From a virus, in the IMG/VR virus record IMGVR_UViG_3300038409_000294, positions 1-39,664 of that record: 39,664 bases of DNA. One strand, given 5' to 3'. Every line of letters begins with the position of its first letter. The stretch's first letter is position 1. This document shows positions 6,101 to 39,664 of the stretch, one piece after another. The position numbers and the translations under genes were made by a program. The notes beneath the pieces were generated by a model that made no database searches, was not told the origin of the DNA, and saw only the letters and a program-made list of their open reading frames with translations.

Positions 6101-7044
6101 ATCCCGGCCACCTGCCAGCTCCACGGCGTGTTGGCCTTGGCGGCGAACTCGATCTTCGGCTTGATCTCGCAGTTGCCGCAGCGCAGATCGGTGCCGTGCC
6201 AGGCGACGACGAGCGAGACCGTGTCGATATTCGGGGCGCTCGCCTGCAGCTGATCGAGCGAGACCAGGAAGTCGGCCTTGCCGATGCTGCCGTGCCGGTT
6301 CTCCGCAATGGTGTGGCCAAATCCATCGTCGCGGTAGACCGTGTCGGTCGCATAGGCGAACTCACCAAGACTTGGAATGAGCGTGACGCCGGTCAGGATA
6401 TCCTCGAGGCGGATGCCGTTTGCGGCAGGCCGGCGAATCACCTCCACCGTGATCTGCGGGATGCGGTTGCCGAATTTCTCGACCGGCATCTCCTCGAACA
6501 CGAGGTATGCAAGCCCGCGGAAGCCCGGCACGTTGCCTGAGCCTTCGACCGCCTCGATCTTGGGATCGGCGCCCTGGGCTTCGTCGCCCTTGTAGAGCCG
6601 CCAGGTGAACTGCGACATATCGAGCGGCTTGCCGTCCGCCCAGACGCCGCCGATGTCGACGATCGGACCCTCGCACAGGCCGAGCGCGAACGAGACGTAA
6701 TAAGTGTAGGTCGTGGTGGTCGTGGTGACGGTCTGCCCGCCGCCGCCGCCGCCCTTGCCGCCGCCGCCTTGCGTCTGGGTGGTCGTGGTCACGACCTCCC
6801 GAAAATTGGTCGCCCAGATCATCTGCGGGCTCACCCGCATGCGGCCGTAGACGCGAAGGACCGCCGCCCCCTCGCTTGAGGAGGTGACAAAGAGGCTTGT
6901 GAGCCGCGGGCCTTCCTCCTGATTCTGGATCGGCCCCGGCGCAAAGAGCTTCTGGTCGATGAAACCCCCGGCAAAGGCGCCGACCAGCGCGCCGATCGGG
7001 CCGCCGACCGCATAGCCGGCGATCGACAGCACAAGCTGAGCCAT
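3106..7044 (-). CDS. GTA-type tail tip / host-specificity protein with TIM-barrel domain
   Basis: A 1312-residue protein of the family called glycoside hydrolase/phage tail protein in Rhodobacter GTA. The N-terminus is hydrophobic and glycine-rich (SIAGYAVGGPIGALVGAFAGG). It is followed by the family's usual Gly/Thr tract (GGGGKGGGGGGQTVTTTTTT, about residues 94-113). The central half is the GTA TIM barrel (VVLYPFVMMD, DFVGIDNYMPLSDWR, and KPIWFTEFGCPA with a candidate catalytic Glu). The C-terminal half matches the phage-tail_3 region (DQLMINRSTIGRTLFDF, RLLRGQLGSEYAM). It forms the baseplate hub and is thought to act on cell-wall or capsule sugars during DNA entry. It is the largest gene in the window and lies directly behind the NlpC/P60 gene. 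Confidence 0.9.
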   Translation of the reverse strand: MAQLVLSIAGYAVGGPIGALVGAFAGGFIDQKLFAPGPIQNQEEGPRLTSLFVTSSSEGAAVLRVYGRMRVSPQMIWATNFREVVTTTTQTQGGGGKGGGGGGQTVTTTTTTYTYYVSFALGLCEGPIVDIGGVWADGKPLDMSQFTWRLYKGDEAQGADPKIEAVEGSGNVPGFRGLAYLVFEEMPVEKFGNRIPQITVEVIRRPAANGIRLEDILTGVTLIPSLGEFAYATDTVYRDDGFGHTIAENRHGSIGKADFLVSLDQLQASAPNIDTVSLVVAWHGTDLRCGNCEIKPKIEFAAKANTPWSWQVAGIGRGGADVVSSDSFGPLLGGAPADRSIVQAIAELKARGFRVVLYPFVMMDVSAGNSLPNPYSDNAATNGQPTFPWRGRITCSPAPGYAGTVDKTATAATQVEAFFGTAAPSDFGAWNGDTIPYSGPAEWSYRRFILHYAKLAVAAGGADAFLIGSEMVALNAVRSSASSFPAVSRMVTLAADVKAIVGAGCKVGYAADWSEYANFRPSDGSNDVYFHLDPLWASANIDFVGIDNYMPLSDWRSGRLHLDAAAGAPSIYDQGYLQSNIEGGELFDWFYASSNDRKTQTRTPVTDGAYGKPWVFRYKDFQSWWANQHYDRPGGVESGTPTAWVPQSKPIWFTEFGCPAIDKGSNQPNVFYDPKSSESFYPYFSTGRRDDLIQRAFLEAHLTYWEPASGHNPTSAVYGGPMIDRASMWAWTWDARPYPQYPNSSLVWRDGPNWRRGHWLTGRLGLVTLADVVAEICAGLGVSIDVSGINGIVRGYLIDKVMSPRSALGPLMQLYFFDACESSGLVKFVQRGGSAVETFVLDQLVDTGADSKGLYSLTRAQETELPRTVHLQFLDPDNDFQAADVYARRLRGSSEKTIELQPAIVFDFAEAQGIVDALLVDAWVMRERAELTLPPSAFAIEPTDVVYLELNGRIFEMRADSVGFEYSRPAKLVRTDEATYGTSDGPPPTRQPKPVTEPGPALLEIMDLPILTPNEVPGVPRLAVYAEPWARVNVFRSPATSGYLLDQLMINRSTIGRTLFDFYSGPLWNWDMANSLTVQIPSTQGLSSLDDLFVLAGGNTCAIRNADGQWEILQFATAELIAADQYKLTRLLRGQLGSEYAMRDPVPAGAPFVVLDTTVMQSSIAVTERHNPWNWKWGPSTKTIDDPTYQVTSFSFDGVGLRPYSPVQLAGIRNLSTFDWTLSWIRRTRIDGDNWEAPDVPLGEEVELYDIDIINIGTGAVVRTTRVNQPSFVYTSAMQVADFGSNQTQVKFAVYQASLAYGRGSGATKTVP

Positions 7045-7047
7045 CGG

Positions 7048-7524
7048 TCAGTCCGTCACGTCCGGAAACGCAAACGCATAGGCGATGCGGCGTCGCCAGG
7101 CGGCCGGCAGCGCATTCTCAGCCACCGCATGGCGGTCGTAGGCATGGATGATCGTGTCGGGGCCCGAGGCGATGGCGGCATGCTTGGCCGGACCGCGGTC
7201 CCGGACGCGGATCAGGATCACATCGCCTTCATTAAGCGGCTCACCATCGCGGAACGGCACCGCGTCAATCTCCACAAGATGACGGCGCGCGGCATCGCGC
7301 AGCGTTTCCTGCCCGGTCTCCTCGGCCCAGTTGGGCGAATAGGGCGCGATCGGCTCCTTTTCGGGCCCGCAGAACACGCGATAGACGCCGCGAATAAGCC
7401 CGAGGCAATCGGCGCCGGCGCCCTTGAGCGACGCCTGGTGCCGATAAGGCGTGCCGATCCAGGAGCGCGCCTCGGCGACGATCTCGGCGCGGCTAACCCT
7501 GGCCGCCGACTTTTGATCCGCCAT
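7048..7524 (-). CDS. NlpC/P60-family tail-tip peptidase
   Basis: A 158-residue protein of the NlpC/P60 fold, normally a cysteine peptidase that cuts cell-wall peptides as the tail tip crosses the envelope. The nucleophile is Cys40 in GADCLGLIRG and the active-site His is His115 in PAKHAAI. A further His follows in IIHAYDRH. The N-terminus EIVAEARSWIGTPYRHQ is typical of the family. The gene overlaps the preceding DUF2163 gene by 32 bases and ends 3 bases before the tail-tip gene. This is the same order as in Rhodobacter GTA (DUF2460, DUF2163, NlpC/P60, TIM-barrel). Confidence 0.9.
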   Translation of the reverse strand: MADQKSAARVSRAEIVAEARSWIGTPYRHQASLKGAGADCLGLIRGVYRVFCGPEKEPIAPYSPNWAEETGQETLRDAARRHLVEIDAVPFRDGEPLNEGDVILIRVRDRGPAKHAAIASGPDTIIHAYDRHAVAENALPAAWRRRIAYAFAFPDVTD

Positions 7525-8392
7525 CGTTGGCGTCTCCGGTGTTGGCGTAGCTCGTCACGGCGTCGTTGCCGGGGATGTAGGGGAAGCCGCGGAAGTTCGG
7601 CACGTTGTTGAAGCGGTCCCGGCACGTGGCGAGACTCTTGTCGCAACCGGCGGTCACGCTGAACGTATCGCCGACCGCGATGTCGAACGGCATGGTCTCC
7701 CACAGCTCGAAGGAGACTTCGGCGCCGTTGTTGACATGGAATTTGATTTCCATGATCGCGCCGGCGTTGGCGCCGGTCAGCCACGTCACCTTGCCGCCGG
7801 TGAACCAGCCATCCTGGTAGCCGTCGAGCCCGCTGGCCGAGAACGTGTGATTGGTGGCGACGCCATCGACCGTGCCGCTGCCCTTGTAGGTCGGCGAGTT
7901 CAGATCGACCGTGCAGCGGCTGTCGCCGAGGTCGGCGTCGCACGAGCGCTGGTAGACGCGCCCACGCTCCTGATTGAGCGCATGCGAGAGGCCGCGCATC
8001 TCGGTCGTGAACGCATTGAGCCCCCGCGAAATCTCCCCGACCGAGCCGCAAAACACGATGTCGCGGTCAGTCACATCGGTCCAATCGACCAGGAACAGAG
8101 TCAGCGATGCATTGTCGTAAAGCCCAGCGGCCAAATCTGCTTCGTTGAGTTGGTCGCTCTGCAGTGCGCCGGCGATGTCCATGGTGTCGACGTTGAGCGC
8201 GAGCGTCTGCGTGACGGCCGACGCCGTCATGCCGGCAAGCCGCTCGTAAGTCACACCGTCGAACGTCAGGTCCTCATCGTGGTCGGTAAACCCGATCTTG
8301 ACGCCATCGGTCCGCTGCAGCAGCCAGCAATGACAGAACGTGGTGAGCCCGCTTGCGAGCTTGTCTCGCATCGAGGCTGACAGGTCGCGCAT
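7493..8392 (-). CDS. DUF2163 tail-tip hub protein
   Basis: A 299-residue protein of the DUF2163 / BR0599 family, a distal tail hub component in GTA-like tails. Family traits are visible: the N-terminus with CHCWLLQRTDGVKIGFTDHDEDL, then MTASAVTQTLALNVDTMDIAGAL, and a cysteine-bearing region RSCDADLGDSRCTVDL. The C-terminal part includes CRDRFNNVPNFRGFPYIPGND, where family members carry paired cysteines that may bind an iron-sulfur cluster. The gene overlaps the NlpC/P60 gene by 32 bases, so its last residues and the start of the peptidase share DNA. Function by family and gene order; no enzyme motif seen. Confidence 0.88.
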   Translation of the reverse strand: MRDLSASMRDKLASGLTTFCHCWLLQRTDGVKIGFTDHDEDLTFDGVTYERLAGMTASAVTQTLALNVDTMDIAGALQSDQLNEADLAAGLYDNASLTLFLVDWTDVTDRDIVFCGSVGEISRGLNAFTTEMRGLSHALNQERGRVYQRSCDADLGDSRCTVDLNSPTYKGSGTVDGVATNHTFSASGLDGYQDGWFTGGKVTWLTGANAGAIMEIKFHVNNGAEVSFELWETMPFDIAVGDTFSVTAGCDKSLATCRDRFNNVPNFRGFPYIPGNDAVTSYANTGDANDGGSKVGGQG

Positions 8393-8407
8393 GCTTGAGG
8401 TTGGCCC

Positions 8408-8998
8408 CTATTCGCGGACCTCGACGAGGTCGATCTGCGAGACGACCTGCTGGTCCCAGGCATTCGCCTGCACCGGCAGATGATCGGTATCGAACCGCGC
8501 GGGGACGTCGAACTCAAAAGTCGCGGTTGGATTCGAACCGGGGTCGTACGCAAACGTGACCTGACCGGTCAGGTAGTCGATGCCGGCCGGCGCAACCGGT
8601 GACCCGCCAACCTTGACGACGACCGTGCCGACCACCGGCTTGGTGATGGTGCGGACATGCTGGAACCCGCCGATGTCGTAGCGCTTGACCAATTGCCAGA
8701 CGGTCGGCGTGAGCTCGACCATCAGCTGGTCGGCGGCGTCGTAATCGTTCCAGTCCTTGAGCCGGAACGAATAGGCCCGACCCTTCACCACATGAAAGAA
8801 CGCAATCACGTCGAGCATCTGCTCGCGCGTGCGGATACCGGTCGAGATGTTCCATTTGCCGCGCGCGTTGGCCCACAGGACGTTGCGCTCTTCGGCGCCG
8901 GAGGCGAGCGTCACCACGTTGGTCGAGAATGATGGCCCGCCGGTCGCCCCGCGCGCCACATAGGGCGGGAACGAGATATCGCGGAATGACAGGGGCAT
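8408..8998 (-). CDS. DUF2460 distal tail protein
   Basis: A 196-residue protein of the DUF2460 / TIGR02217 family, the distal tail protein of Rhodobacter GTA and related phages. It joins the tail tube to the hub. The start FRDISFPPYVARGATGGPSFSTNV and the segment GIRTREQMLDVIAFFHVVKGRAYSFRLKDWNDY are characteristic. The C-terminal part is beta-rich and ends in VVSQIDLVEVRE. It begins 4 bases after the tape-measure stop and is followed after 15 bases by DUF2163. Confidence 0.9.
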   Translation of the reverse strand: MPLSFRDISFPPYVARGATGGPSFSTNVVTLASGAEERNVLWANARGKWNISTGIRTREQMLDVIAFFHVVKGRAYSFRLKDWNDYDAADQLMVELTPTVWQLVKRYDIGGFQHVRTITKPVVGTVVVKVGGSPVAPAGIDYLTGQVTFAYDPGSNPTATFEFDVPARFDTDHLPVQANAWDQQVVSQIDLVEVRE

Positions 8999-9002
8999 CC
9001 TT

Positions 9003-12000
9003 TCAGCTCCCGCGCATGCCCATCCGCACCGCGCGCGCGAGGTCGGCGGCCACCTGGGTGCGGCTTGCCTGGAACGCGGCCGGGCTCGGCGTCTGGATCG
9101 TGACGTTGACCACCGGGGCGACCGGCATTCCGCCCCCCGCGCCGTAGTTTCGCGCCTCGTCGCGGCTCAGCACCCGCTCGCCGCGCTGCAGGATTGCCGG
9201 CACTTCATCCGGCGACAGGAAGGCGCCGTCGTGGAAGCGCGGCGCGCCCCTGAACACGGCGGCCGGCAGAGCGGCCGGCCTGCCGTCCAGCCCCACCAGG
9301 CCGCCTTCGTGGAATTTGAAGCCCTTCAACAGACCGCCCAGCAGCCCGCCGACATCGCCAAGCGTGGTGAGATTGGTGCCGAACAAGAAGTTCTTGAGCG
9401 GATTGAGCACCGCGAGCTTGAGGATTTCCTTTTCGATGTCGGCAAGAGCCGCGCGTCCGGCGTCGGCCCAGGATTTCCAGTCGAGCTTGCCCTGCGCGAT
9501 CAGGTCCGCAAAATGGTTGAAGGTCGTGTCCGTCATGCTCTGCAGGGACTGCATGGCGCCCTGCGAGCGGGCGAGCGACTGGTTCAGCCGCTCGATGTAG
9601 GCCGCATTGGCGAGGATCGCCTGGCCTTCGGCGCTGGCGAGGTCGATGCCCTTCTGGCGCAACTGCTGCTCGGCCTGCAGCTGGGCGATGATGACGGCGC
9701 GCTGCGATTCGCCAATGCCCGCGAGGTCGATCTGCTTCTGCAGCAGCTCGACCTGGTTTCGCTGGTTCTCCAGCGTCTGTAACGCCGCGGCGCGCGCCTG
9801 CTCGCCATGAAGCCGCGCATAGGCGCCGCGCAGCGCATCGATGACACGGCCGAGAGTGGCTTTCGCATCGCCCTCGGCGAGCGATTGCGCAATGATCAGC
9901 GGCCGCAGCGCCTGCTCGACCTGCATTTGCCGCTGCGCCTGTTCGGTCGAAAGCCGGCCGGCTAAGACCGCGTCGTTGAGCCGCCGCTGCGCGGCGGCTT
10001 CCGCAGTCAGATCGTTGACGGACTTGGCCGACTGCGCCGCCTGCTCGGCGATCTGCTCGCGAAGGAGATCGCGCGCCCGGCTTTCCACGTCCACGCCGTT
10101 CTGCACGGCCTCAGTCAGCGCCTTGCGGCGGACCTCGGCTTGCTGCGCGGCGGCGGCGCCCTTGAGCCAGGCATCGGCCAGACCAAGCGTCGCCTTGGTG
10201 TTGACGTCGAGGACGCGCGCCTGGTCGATCAGCGCCTGCGTGGCCTCGGCGCGCGCCTTGGCGCCGGTGCGCGTGATGTCGGCCTCGGCAATGGCGACCG
10301 GAATCGCCTGGCCGGCGAGTTCCAGCCGTCGCCGCTCTTCCGCGATGGCTGCCTTCTGGGCCGGGGTCTTGGCGGCCAGCGCCTGGATCTCGAGTTCGTC
10401 GAGGCGACGGGCTTTCTCGGCTGGATCGAGCCAGGTCTGGATCGCACGGGTGACTGCGTCATAGGCGGTTTCGACCTGCTTGAGATCGGCGACCTTCTGC
10501 TTGGCGAGTGGGTCGTCAAGCGCAGTGCGAATCTGCGCTTCACGTGCCCGCAGCGTCTGCAGCTCTTCAAATCCGGGCGTCAGCTCGCGAGCGACGGTGC
10601 CGGCGCGCACCGAGAGTTCGTTTGCCTTGGCTTCCTTTGCGCGCTGCTCGATCGTGTTGAGCTTGGCCTCGATCTTGGCGATTTCGGCGTCGACCTGCGC
10701 CAGCATCCGCGTGTTGAAGTTGCGGGCCTGGGCGGCGAAGCGCGTCGGCGGATTTTCGATCAGCGCCTGTAGGCGCGCGCGTTCCTGCTGCAGCTCCTTG
10801 AGGCGTTCCTCGATCGGGGCCCCGTCCAGCACCCGCGAGATCGCCCGGCCGATCGCGTCATAGGCGTTCGATGCCATTCGCCCGACGAAGTCCCAGGCGC
10901 GCCCAAGCGCCGTGGTGGCGTCGGCCGCGTTGATCAGGCTTCCCTTGAGCGCTTCGAGCAGGACCCGCTGCGCGGCGGTGCGGTCGTTGTGGTCGGCAAG
11001 CGTGCGAACGTATTGCCGCGTCCGGTCGTCGAGGAAGTTGAGCTTCGCATTCAGTGCATCGGCGCCCTTGATCGGGTCGGCGAAGGCGCTGGCCAGTTCC
11101 TTAGCGGCGGTCGCAACGTCGGTGCCGGTGGTTGCGGCATAATTCCTTGCGACCTTGATCAGGCCATCAAAATTCGAGACCGCAATCCTGCCGGTCTGCA
11201 GGAATGCGGCCTCCATTTCGCGGGCTGCGGCCACCGAAACGCCGGCAGTGGAAGCTGACCGTTCGGCGATCCGCTCGATCTGGCCGACGGTTACGCCCGC
11301 AGCTCGGCCGGTGCCGCCGAGCGCGACCTCGAGCTCCTTCTGCGACTCGATATAGCGGTAGTAGGAGTATCCTACGGCCGCGCCGATCGCCGCGATACCG
11401 GCGACCACCGCCACGGTGGGCGAGATCAGGCCCGTGAGACCCTTCCAGACACCCTGGAGCAGTCCGCCGAGGCCGCCTTCGCCCAACGCCGCCGAGGCCT
11501 TGATGCCCTCGGTGGTGAGCACCCGCATCGGGCTTTGGCCCGAAATCAGCGCGTCGACCGTATGGCGCGCGGCCGAGCCCAGGATCAGAACCTGGTTGGT
11601 GCTGAGCGCCGCGCTGCCGCCGTACTTCTCAATGACCGCCGCGGCTTCCTTGTAGCGGCTGTTGGCAAGCGCGACGGCGGCCGCATGCTCGGCCTGCGTG
11701 ATCGCGCCAGCCTTGAACAGCGAGCCTGCTTCCGCGACATCGCTGTTGAGCTTCTTTTGCGCGGTGCCCAGCGGATCGATCTGCGCCCGCAGCGCCGAGG
11801 TTCGGGCTTCCAGATCTTCGGCGGCCCGGGCGGTTTCCTCGAAGACCGCAGCCGACTCGCGCGCCGACTTCGGCTGCGTATCGACGCCGAGGACCTGGTT
11901 GAAGCCACGCTGTGCCTGGTCGGTGGCGCCGGCCTGTCGTGCGGCCTCCGCCAACCGCTGGAGACGCTGAGCCTGCCGATCGGTGGCGGCGCCCGTTGCA

Positions 12001-36065: not shown

Positions 36066-36899
36066 TCATCCTTTGCTGGGCTGGTTGATCTTGCGAATGA
36101 GCGCGCTCAGATCGGGCGGCTCGGTCAGGTCGAGGCGGCCGGAGCGATCCTTGCCGGGCAGACCGAACGGATTGGCCGCCTGGCAGACGAAGCGGCGCAC
36201 GTCGCCGCGATCGGGCTCGTGGCGCCAAGCGTCGCCGTCGGCGGTGAACCGGCTCATGGAGATCACCTGGTCGACGATGCCGGGGAGCTCGCGGGCGGCC
36301 TTGCCGCCTTCCATTTGCGGCTGCCAGGTGATGCGGTTGAACTCGTCGGTGATGCGCTCCAGGATGCCGACGAAGATGACGGTGCGGCCGGGCGCGTGCT
36401 GCAGGTGCTTCATGAGCCCGATGGTTTCCCGTGCCAGGAGACCGTAGGCGCCGCGGGTATCGGGTTTCCCGGTCCGCTCCGACTGCGCCTCGGGCCGGGT
36501 CTTCGCCCACACCATGGCGAGCCGCGTCAGGTCGGTAATCGAGTCAACGAAGATGATGCGCTTGCCGGCGATCATGCGGACAAGGTCGGGATAGCTGTCG
36601 ACCAGGTGCCGGTAGTGGCTCTCGCAGAAGAAGGTCTTCTCGTCGGCGGCCGGATTGATGCCACCGATCAGGCAGCCGATGTCGAGCGCATCGGCGAAGC
36701 TGCGCACCGGGATGCTGTCGCCCGGCCAGTCCTGGACCGACTTCATGCCAGCCTCAAGATCGATGCAGAGCGTCTCCGCCGGCGGCAAGGTCTTGAGCAG
36801 CGAGGTCTTGCCGACACCCGAGGGCCCGAAGATCGCCATCGTGGTCTTGGCATGCGCCTCCGCGAGCCGCTGATCGGCGGTGATGATGCGCAGCGCCAT
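36066..36899 (-). CDS. Sak4-like RecA-fold ATPase (AAA_24)
   Basis: A 277-residue ATPase with Walker A GPSGVGKTS (25-33), an acidic strand LCIDLEAG, Walker B RIIFVDSITD (Asp119), and a long helix-rich region ending in GRTVIFVGIL. This pattern fits the AAA_24/Sak4 group, single-strand annealing or RecA-like recombinases of phages. The ATG shares a base with the stop of the upstream gene (TGATG) and has GGGAGG at 7 nt. It forms a unit with the ssDNA-binding protein, nuclease and helicase. Confidence 0.88.
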   Translation of the reverse strand: MALRIITADQRLAEAHAKTTMAIFGPSGVGKTSLLKTLPPAETLCIDLEAGMKSVQDWPGDSIPVRSFADALDIGCLIGGINPAADEKTFFCESHYRHLVDSYPDLVRMIAGKRIIFVDSITDLTRLAMVWAKTRPEAQSERTGKPDTRGAYGLLARETIGLMKHLQHAPGRTVIFVGILERITDEFNRITWQPQMEGGKAARELPGIVDQVISMSRFTADGDAWRHEPDRGDVRRFVCQAANPFGLPGKDRSGRLDLTEPPDLSALIRKINQPSKG

Positions 36900-37737: not shown

Positions 37738-37980
37738 TTACTGCTGCGTGGAAGCGCGAAGCTGCGCGTGCTTGTTCGCGCTCGTGCCGGCAACCATTGC
37801 CTTGCCTTCGCGAGCACGTTCCGTCTCGAACGCTTCGATGTCCTCGAGGCGATAGACGACGCGGCCGACGATCTTCAGGTAGCGCGGACCGAGGCCCTGG
37901 TAGCGCCAGCGCTCCAACGTACGGGGGCTGAGGCTCCAGCGCCGCGCGAGTTGAACTTGATTGAGATGTTTGATGTCCAT
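37738..37980 (-). CDS. Small HTH DNA-binding protein (MerR/excisionase-like)
   Basis: An 80-residue protein from the ATG at 37980 (MDIKHLNQVQLARRWSLSPRTLERWRYQGLGPRYLKIVGRVVYRLEDIEAFETERAREG). This is a clear HTH_17/excisionase-like winged helix: LARRWSLSPRTLERW is the HTH and GPRYLKIVGRVVYRLEDIEAF the wing. It could be an excisionase, a regulator of the early operon or a small replication helper. A TTG at 37992 would add four residues. It is the first gene of the early block after a 130-bp gap (37981-38110) in which I could not fix a promoter. Confidence 0.82.
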   Translation of the reverse strand: MDIKHLNQVQLARRWSLSPRTLERWRYQGLGPRYLKIVGRVVYRLEDIEAFETERAREGKAMVAGTSANKHAQLRASTQQ

Positions 37981-38110
37981 GGTGCCAACCAATGCGTGTC
38001 GAGTTCACGCGAAGGATGGCGCATGCCCTGTGGGATTCTTGATTGGTTCAGTGTGCGAAAAGGCGTGTGAATTCGCTAGGCTCGAAAGAAGTCTGGCGCG
38101 TTGTCTGCGG

Positions 38111-39031
38111 CTACAGGTCGAGCCAGTAGTACCCGGCACCATCGTATTTAATCAGCGATCCGTAGGCCGGGTGACCCGCAAACAATTGCCCGACACGTTG
38201 GTTTGTACTGGCCGCACCTTGGATTTCAGTTTGATGAAGACGAGGGGCACCGCTTTTCCGCGCCTGATAGAGAGCCTCCACCACAAGTGCTTGTTTATCA
38301 GTGAATGAATATTCCTGATCTCCAACCACAGCCGAACGAAACCCCGGGCTGAACACGAAGCCAATAGCTTCACCGCGGAAGCGATGGTCCGTTCCACGAA
38401 GGGCAGCATGGATAGGCCCTTCTTCAATCATGATCTTGCTGGCGGAGACTTGCAGCACATCTTCGAGGGGAATGAGGGCGCAGCGTGGCGGTGCTTCACC
38501 GGGAATCAAATCGAGCGGGGTCAACGTCATGATGATTGCCGGCGCCTTCCCGGTTTGCCCTGCCACGATCCGCTTGGCCTCTTCGAATCGGGTTTTTTCG
38601 GAGAGACGGCGGCCAACGAATAACTCGCACGCATATGGGCCAAAGCGCGCCCGTCCGACACGGGTGATAGTTGATGGGATCGACGCCTTGACGAAATTTA
38701 GTCCCAGTGCTGTTGCGATGCTGCTGGCAATCCAATTCTCGTCGACCACAAATCGCCGCAACGTGTCCGGTTGAACCTGCTGATATCCGCTGTCAGGGCA
38801 GAAAGCGCGATAGAGTCCGTCGCCAGCGTACTCAACGCCGATCGAGTGCGGGGCGTCGCAGCCAAGGCACAAGATTGTCTCTGCGTTGCCAATGTGAGTC
38901 AGCGCACCGAGATCGATCAGCGAAGTTAATGCAGCTTGATCGTTGCTCTCTTCGATTCCCTGGCCTGTAATCTCCGGCACCTCGCCCTCGCAAAGAGCTC
39001 GAATCGCCAAGACGAGATTGGTGGTGGTCAT
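38111..39031 (-). CDS. Unknown protein of low-GC cargo pair, with possible zinc ribbon
   Basis: A 306-residue protein I do not recognise. Near residues 54-77 it has LCLGCDAPHS...RAFCPD (CxxC, His, Cys), which may bind zinc. Later parts are a mixed alpha/beta domain (FGPYACELFVGRRLSEKTRFEEAKRIVAGQTGKAPAIIMTLTPLDLIPGEAPPRCALIPLEDVL). A C-terminal winged-helix-like segment follows (YSFTDKQALVVEALYQARKSGAPRLHQTEIQ, then a short wing and YDGAGYYWLDL). Base composition is clearly less GC-rich than the phage genes. It starts 3 bases after its partner gene. A defence or regulatory role is possible but unproven. Confidence 0.78.
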   Translation of the reverse strand: MTTTNLVLAIRALCEGEVPEITGQGIEESNDQAALTSLIDLGALTHIGNAETILCLGCDAPHSIGVEYAGDGLYRAFCPDSGYQQVQPDTLRRFVVDENWIASSIATALGLNFVKASIPSTITRVGRARFGPYACELFVGRRLSEKTRFEEAKRIVAGQTGKAPAIIMTLTPLDLIPGEAPPRCALIPLEDVLQVSASKIMIEEGPIHAALRGTDHRFRGEAIGFVFSPGFRSAVVGDQEYSFTDKQALVVEALYQARKSGAPRLHQTEIQGAASTNQRVGQLFAGHPAYGSLIKYDGAGYYWLDL

Positions 39032-39034
39032 GAC

Positions 39035-39664
39035 TTACGCCGCAGGTTCGATGAGCTTCCATCTCTCAATATGCATTTCGGCAATCTTGCGGTCTGCCTC
39101 GGGCAGGTCCTTCAGGTTCGACGAGTTCGGCCTGGTCAGTTCGATGTTGAGCGTTTTTGCCCTCTTTGCACCCGGCGGCGCGTTGAAGTGCATTGAGATG
39201 GTTGCATGGACTACTGTGAACTTGCTGTAGACGCGCGATTTCTCAGAAAACCAGCTGTTGCCTAGATCATAGACGGATGTCCCTGGAACCCCTCCCGGCG
39301 CCTCAATTGTCATCAAGCCCGATCCCGCGGCAGGAGCAGCTAGTTTGAGCCTGCGCACCCGAACCGCCTTCACACCCACTGCGGGATCTGGCGCAAGCGT
39401 CTGCGGTGTCTTCAAGGCATCGAGGAGAAATGACCTCTTCCTGACCAAATCGAATTTGGGCTCGATCTTGAGAAGCTTTCGCGCAAACGACTCGCGGAGC
39501 GCCTCATGCACCTCTTTGCCGCCTCTTGTGACGGTCGAGGTATGACCATTGTTTGCGTCGTACACAATCGCCGCTTCGAGCGCTGGGTTCGAGATGCGAC
39601 GGGTGAATTTGCCATTCACAAATTCCGTGCCGTTGTTGGGCAGCCCTTGGATATAAACCGCCAC
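39035..39664 (-). CDS. Unknown protein of low-GC cargo pair, partial (N-terminus may lie outside)
   Basis: At least 209 residues, open to the window edge; the first codon seen is a GTG that may be internal. The chain reads YIQGLPNNGTEFVNGKFTRRISNPALEAAIVYDANNGHTSTVTRGGKEVHEALRESFARKLLKIEPKFD, then a basic region. A stretch that may sense or bind something (GVPGTSVYDLGNSWFSEKSRVYSKFTVVHATISMHFN) follows, and the end is helical (EADRKIAEMHIERWKLIEPAA). No motif is recognised. It is transcribed with the zinc-ribbon-like gene (3-base gap) and shares its lower GC. Confidence 0.7.
   Translation of the reverse strand: MAVYIQGLPNNGTEFVNGKFTRRISNPALEAAIVYDANNGHTSTVTRGGKEVHEALRESFARKLLKIEPKFDLVRKRSFLLDALKTPQTLAPDPAVGVKAVRVRRLKLAAPAAGSGLMTIEAPGGVPGTSVYDLGNSWFSEKSRVYSKFTVVHATISMHFNAPPGAKRAKTLNIELTRPNSSNLKDLPEADRKIAEMHIERWKLIEPAA

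Follow-up and report, generated by a model that had tools for sequence, protein, structure and literature searches.

The sequence analysed, referred to here as the window, was the entire IMG/VR record IMGVR_UViG_3300038409_000294 (39,664 bases). Two genes on the minus strand lie at its right end. Gene B (38111..39031) was called as an open reading frame of 306 aa with an ATG start, and the C-terminal 209 codons of gene A occupy 39035..39664, with an open 5' end and the remainder beyond the edge of the record. The stop codon of A and the ATG of B are separated by 3 bases. The partial A aligns to approximately residues 185-393 of the A protein of a full-length relative (L016), and it matched phrog_37634, a family of unknown function, with an E-value of 2.5e-39 at profile positions 195-407 of 416. 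Since this match is confined to the second half of the profile, the window holds the C-terminal half of A alone. Downstream of A-B, after a gap of 118 bp (37993..38110, minus strand) that is clearly similar to the same gap in the relative L003 and possibly represents a control region, lies a gene for an AlpA/Xis-type HTH protein (37738..37992, minus strand). It was recognised by synteny and by its matches to phrog_66 (excisionase and transcriptional regulator, E 2.5e-8) and Pfam HTH_17 (E 1.7e-6), and it is the next gene downstream of B, as expected from a first-pass annotation of this DNA that had located the pair beyond an early HTH gene. Early genes follow as far as a Sak4-like recombination gene (36066..36899, minus strand; phrog_124, E 2e-34), which was used as the anchor of the survey described below.

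The G+C content of A-B was 56.3%, compared with 65.4% in the rest of the window, and the lowest value among all of the 1-kb steps was found at 38001-39000, which confirms that the pair is less GC-rich than the phage core. In the relatives the dip is mild, usually 1-5 points under the flanks. When the window was compared with L003, the closest relative (84-91% identical), dN/dS was approximately 0.14 for B and 0.04 for two parts of A. These low values indicate that both are real, selected protein genes, and spurious open reading frames were thereby excluded.

Neither of the two window proteins gave any match in Pfam or NCBIfam, or among the anti-phage defence models of PADLOC, which contain no family for A or B. 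The only profile matched by A was phrog_37634, so the first-pass view that both proteins lie outside recognised families was borne out. The sequence and structure searches which that annotation had proposed were carried out with both proteins; no named sequence family was obtained, and the structural matches were to CENP-N/L and RdgC for A and to OmpR/PhoB for B. No relatives of either protein were found in the named-phage collection, and a BFVD search with B gave no match. Among plasmids, relatives were returned only for Candidatus Tenderia electrophaga (one plasmid) and for Roseicitreum antarcticum, where the copy is partial and unannotated. A Chryseobacterium locus (L007) was discarded as a chance match, consisting of 23 aa that contain a stop in a genome without a family match. 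A nuclease or toxin was also rejected, with neither a catalytic motif nor a family match detected.

The surroundings of the pair were analyzed in two sets of loci. The first comprised 80 viral loci seeded by the neighbouring Sak4 gene, not by A or B, which were located in these loci by iterated HMM searches. Most of the loci with enough upstream sequence contained A or B. When the whole segment between the serine recombinase and Sak4 was available, A-B was present in 27 of 33 contigs, in five of them as a single fused gene; these are counts of contigs, some of them near-duplicates, and not of independent lineages. Of the six segments lacking the pair, three contained Xre and ImmA and one a LexA/CI-like repressor; in the remaining two, which are near-identical contigs, nothing was recognised. 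Approximately 20 relatives carried A-B without any recognised Xre. The second set consisted of 80 loci, 79 of them new, collected from an alignment of full-length A relatives. B directly followed A in 78 of these 79, and the AlpA/Xis-type HTH gene was found downstream in every one. Xre was located upstream of A in 65, divergently in 47 and co-directionally in 18. Where the sequence sufficed, the gene order in this set was recombinase, DUF2924, ImmA and Xre, A, B, HTH and Sak4.

The pair is, therefore, a near-constant part of the backbone of the recombinase-to-Sak4 segment, and the initial description of it as cargo does not agree with its presence in most whole segments and in nearly all of the A loci. 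The interval between B and the HTH gene is the true slot for accessory defence or toxin-antitoxin cargo: the inspection of the neighbourhood for defence genes, also proposed at the outset, detected AbiEii/AbiEi (Pfam) and RES-domain genes inserted at this point in relatives (L121:5259-6383, minus strand; L160:6635-7405, minus strand; L127:5359-6051, plus strand).

Median pairwise identity was 50% for A and 46% for B, compared with 81% for Sak4 and 76% for the recombinase. The divergence of A was correlated with that of B (r 0.92) and with that of Sak4 (r 0.69). Between the window and L024, L026 and L027, Sak4 was 97% identical and A-B merely 23-30%. Such fast divergence, the co-variation of A and B, and a nearly constant Sak4 beside a strongly altered pair point to an exchangeable control module and not to a one-off cargo. 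Moreover, fusions of A and B in a single open reading frame were observed in three distinct kinds (L032/L033:3456-5801, L094/L096:3118-5367 and L090:3443-5647), and together with the co-varying divergence they indicate that A and B form a two-protein unit. The tight coupling of the two genes, previously noted in the window, was thus confirmed by their spacing, their fusions and their shared pattern of divergence.

Upstream of A in the divergent loci, the palindrome GTTCG-N6-CGAAC was found in the gap between Xre and A, on the Xre side and at a near-fixed distance, and a second copy or half-copy was often located about 64 bp away. Allowing up to two mismatches, the palindrome was present in 20 of 26 non-redundant Xre-A gaps (4.3 expected from shuffles), and at least two copies were present in 9 of the 26 (0.28 expected). 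Perfect copies were found 22 times in 285,570 bp, in 19 of the 26 loci, with none of the 22 further than approximately 100 bases from the Xre helix-turn-helix domain, upstream of it and towards A. Most of these loci have TTGACA and a TAT(C/A)T(T)-like box (e.g., TATCTT) between the upstream operator copy or half-copy and the perfect copy; 3' of these promoter boxes are AGGAGG-type sites and then the rightward genes, of which the first is either A itself or a small DUF2188 gene that precedes it. Where Xre runs in the same direction as A-B, the palindrome was not detected. The position of these sites suggests that Xre may bind to them. The relatives, therefore, have a divergent Xre repressor with putative shared operators and a promoter, and this layout puts A-B at the head of the early operon, in the place of lambda cro. 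The A gene of the window is cut before its start, so any Xre, ImmA or operator of its own phage would lie beyond the end of the record.

The structure of A was predicted by AlphaFold2 on a full-length relative using 28 sequences (pLDDT 82, pTM 0.70), and in the model a helical N-terminal part (residues 1-122) is followed by two alpha/beta domains. When it was compared with the PDB by Foldseek, the nine best matches were all CENP-N/Chl4 or CENP-L/Iml3 chains (E 2.4e-4 to 1.2e-2). The VIA-align comparison gave Z 7.0-8.7 for CENP-N/L, with CENP-N at the top (8.7), 7.4 for RdgC and 6.4 for the best unrelated match. The alignment with Iml3 (Z 7.9) covered 180 of its 219 residues and that with CENP-L (Z 7.5) 224 of 312, and some of the CENP alignments reached the N-terminal helical part of A (model 58-362). 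Residues 119-393 of A aligned to RdgC 2owy with Z 7.4 and an rmsd of 9.7 over 221 residues, and 2owl gave Z 6.2. The TM-scores of these fold matches were low (at most 0.39), and the RexA structure 8twq was absent among the matches listed. At the sequence level, a profile search of PDB sequences revealed no similarity between A and CENP-N/L, and hhalign comparisons of the A alignment with single sequences of lambda RexA (probability 0.1, E 0.65) and E. coli RdgC (probability 0.2, E 0.25) were not significant. RexA, RdgC, IML3 and CHL4 have been described as sharing one fold (PMC11077077; also PMC4080450). That three separate families belonging to one published fold class came up together carries more weight than a single match would, and A is predicted from its model to belong to this CENP-N/Chl4, CENP-L/Iml3 and RdgC class, which is the published class of lambda RexA.

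Lambda RexA, together with Sbash gp30, CarolAnn gp44 and P. putida PP_5643, resembles A as a temperate-phage protein encoded near the repressor, in its predicted fold class and as part of a two-gene unit. The position in the immunity region next to the repressor that is characteristic of RexAB was likewise found for A-B in the relatives, given the frequency of Xre upstream of A. By contrast, A has an extra N-terminal helical part of approximately 120 residues and no detectable profile similarity to RexA, and A-B is mostly divergent from the repressor, with which the lambda rex genes share a transcript. RdgC is a recombination-associated DNA ring of bacteria, while A is encoded in a phage operon with a wHTH partner. 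CENP-N/Chl4 and CENP-L/Iml3 gave the best structural matches to A, but they are eukaryotic centromere proteins.

B was modelled with AF2 on the window protein (pLDDT 85). The predicted layout consists of an N-terminal winged-helix-like part, a beta-rich part bearing cysteines, an alpha/beta middle and a C-terminal winged helix of the OmpR/PhoB type. This last domain (residues 221-306; 38114..38371, minus strand) was matched to PDB structures with Z 8.0 and an rmsd of 2.7 over about 80 residues. Pfam Trans_reg_C (PF00486) was detected in 12 of 31 members of the B family (best E 6.8e-7), the window B itself being without a Pfam match. The C-terminal winged helix that the first-pass annotation had read from the letters was thereby confirmed. 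The order of elements suggests that the N-terminal 60 residues may form a further winged helix. A zinc ribbon, also proposed for this protein, was supported only in part: a CxxC is present in 21 of the 28 relatives with letters at that point, and the third and fourth cysteines stand at conserved columns in 19, but the cysteine counts in the alignment leave the window with just C55, C58 and an out-of-register C78 (residues 55-78; 38798..38869, minus strand). For the middle domain no match to a known fold was found, which does not by itself mean a new fold. No Pfam receiver domain was detected in the 31 family members, and full-length response regulators aligned to the middle part with an rmsd of 6.8-12.6. 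Thus, B shares its C-terminal domain with the OmpR/PhoB regulators, but it has no recognised receiver and its N-terminal two thirds are unlike known regulators. The suggestion of a new two-component system holds in the sense of a two-protein unit; nothing indicates one of the phosphorelay type.

Additionally, two relatives and the plasmid copies present different surroundings. In L003 the gene immediately upstream of A, in the same orientation, encodes an SspA/DndA-like cysteine desulfurase (10038-11189, minus strand) and not an Xre, and a cysteine desulfurase is likewise found upstream of A in L002. The genes after A-B in the plasmid of Candidatus Tenderia electrophaga (L006:7443-12124) encode a multiubiquitin protein (PF14452), a JAB-like protein and an E1 of the ThiF type; PglZ-like and DUF499 genes are close by, and every gene here is annotated as hypothetical. 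The ubiquitin-type neighbours had suggested that an E2-like enzyme might be encoded here, but no E2 match was obtained by sequence or by fold.

Taken together, the location and control seen in the relatives are the basis of a proposed role in which A and B, as DNA-binding partners encoded in the early operon at the position of cro, would bias the choice between lysis and lysogeny, a function to which we give about even chances. Their genes would open the rightward early (lytic) operon, or lie close to its start, before the excisionase-type HTH and recombination genes, like lambda cro. On the model of the relatives, palindromic operators would stand on both sides of the early promoter, next to a divergent Xre that has an ImmA/IrrE-type protease as its partner, and A and B would be made once the repressor is lost. 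A, with its predicted RexA/RdgC/Iml3-Chl4-type fold, might then attach to DNA or clamp it with no strong preference for sequence, in the manner of RexA and RdgC, and the OmpR-type winged helix of B might supply specificity for a promoter or a partner. Acting together, the two proteins would promote the lytic state and hold it in place, an effect that has been reported for lambda RexA; they might do so by interfering with the binding of the repressor and by aiding early transcription or excision. DNA binding by lambda RexA is non-specific, and its stabilising effect on the lytic state does not depend on RexB (PMC11077077).

The apparent exchange of the pair with repressor modules, as judged from the genes that occupy the six segments without A-B (Xre with ImmA in half of them, a LexA/CI-like repressor in another), would count for this switch role. 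Against it stand the window without a visible Xre, the desulfurase upstream of A in L003, the relatives that lack Xre, the different orientation of the lambda rex genes, the match of A by structure only and the plasmid copy; the multiubiquitin/JAB/E1 cluster in which that copy lies is unexplained by a pure phage-switch role. The arrangement resembles the ImmR-ImmA switch of ICEBs1 and phages, where an Xre and an M78 (ImmA/IrrE) protease are encoded beside an integrase, with operators in the divergent gap. It differs from ICEBs1 in that the early operon opens with A-B, or with the small DUF2188 gene and then A-B, in place of the known ICEBs1 early genes.

A second explanation is Rex-like exclusion, in which A would detect, on DNA, the intermediates of foreign replication or recombination and B would relay the signal, so that the infection by other phages is aborted. 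The fold class of A, the fast divergence of the pair beside a constant Sak4, which is typical of a phage arms race, and the neighbours of the Tenderia plasmid copy are all consistent with it. However, exclusion by RexAB involves RexB, a four-helix membrane protein, whereas B is predicted to be a soluble multi-domain protein (hydropathy maximum 1.25) with a transcription-factor-type wing, and a RexB-type partner with about four transmembrane helices was rejected for it. Furthermore, no toxic effector domain and no PADLOC match were found. Defence genes are normally expressed from the prophage, and the near-universal presence of the pair and its control by operators together with the early operon also speak against exclusion, which we regard as doubtful. 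A third explanation is that A is an RdgC-like DNA ring which acts jointly with B on the shape of DNA, in preparation for Sak4-type annealing, for excision by the serine recombinase or for the start of replication. It would fit the two RdgC matches and the gene order, in which A-B comes after the integration genes and before Sak4, with the Xis-type HTH gene as its immediate downstream neighbour. Nevertheless, A-B is far more variable than Sak4 and the recombinase, and the segments without A-B hold repressor modules and not recombination genes, which leaves this helper role unlikely, if only slightly more so than exclusion, although both are real alternatives to the switch role.

By analogy with CENP-L/N, the pair could also clamp phage or plasmid DNA in a centromere-like complex for segregation or maintenance. 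The best fold matches are indeed inner-kinetochore proteins, with some alignments extending into the N-terminal helical part, and one A-B copy is plasmid-borne. But no ParA-type partner or repeated binding site was recognised beside A-B, these phages integrate via a serine recombinase, and in the relatives A-B are early-operon genes under a repressor; a segregation complex is, therefore, very improbable. Somewhat less remote, yet still improbable, is a broader proposal: phages and plasmids might carry a distant prokaryotic relative of CENP-L/CENP-N, with an N-terminal helical domain as in CENP-N/Chl4, which would form with its winged-helix partner a DNA-entrapping complex used both at the phage switch and alongside the ubiquitin-like conjugation cluster of the plasmid, and a mobile element might then be the source of part of the kinetochore. 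Interest in the CENP-L/N link would rise if it reflected common descent.

The best reading of these results is that the switch regions of temperate phages widely contain this pair as a component that had not been named before. A-B recurs in more than 100 uncultured phage contigs, yet neither Pfam nor NCBIfam has an entry for it; the pair can now be given a location, a logic of regulation and a mechanism open to testing. The RexA side of the lambda switch, a non-specific binder that favours lysis, is poorly understood. If A were RexA-like in its action, such a lytic-favouring DNA binder would be a widespread early-operon strategy, used here with a different DNA-binding partner, and the structural link between RexA, RdgC and CENP-L/N would gain a large new family.

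Some individual loci showed further particularities. In one branch (L031:4406-4975 and many of the L024-L103 loci) a sigma-70-region-2-like gene replaces the AlpA/Xis HTH gene. L119 contains broken or duplicated A and B frames at approximately 7000-9500, probably a decaying copy. In the R. antarcticum plasmid pRA01 (L014:9899-11152), the A-like open frame (E 5e-56) lies in an unannotated stretch with phage-like genes adjoining. A segment from within the HTH gene to within A is inverted in L003 (7699-9531), and also in L002, relative to the window (37833; 39332-39333). The same base in A is involved at both junctions, so that A is rearranged and split in two in both contigs, and the inversion is either real or an assembly effect. 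Finally, one open reading frame of L003 (3021-4988, minus strand) appears to join a terminase-like C-terminal part to a ParB/methylase-type N-terminal part.
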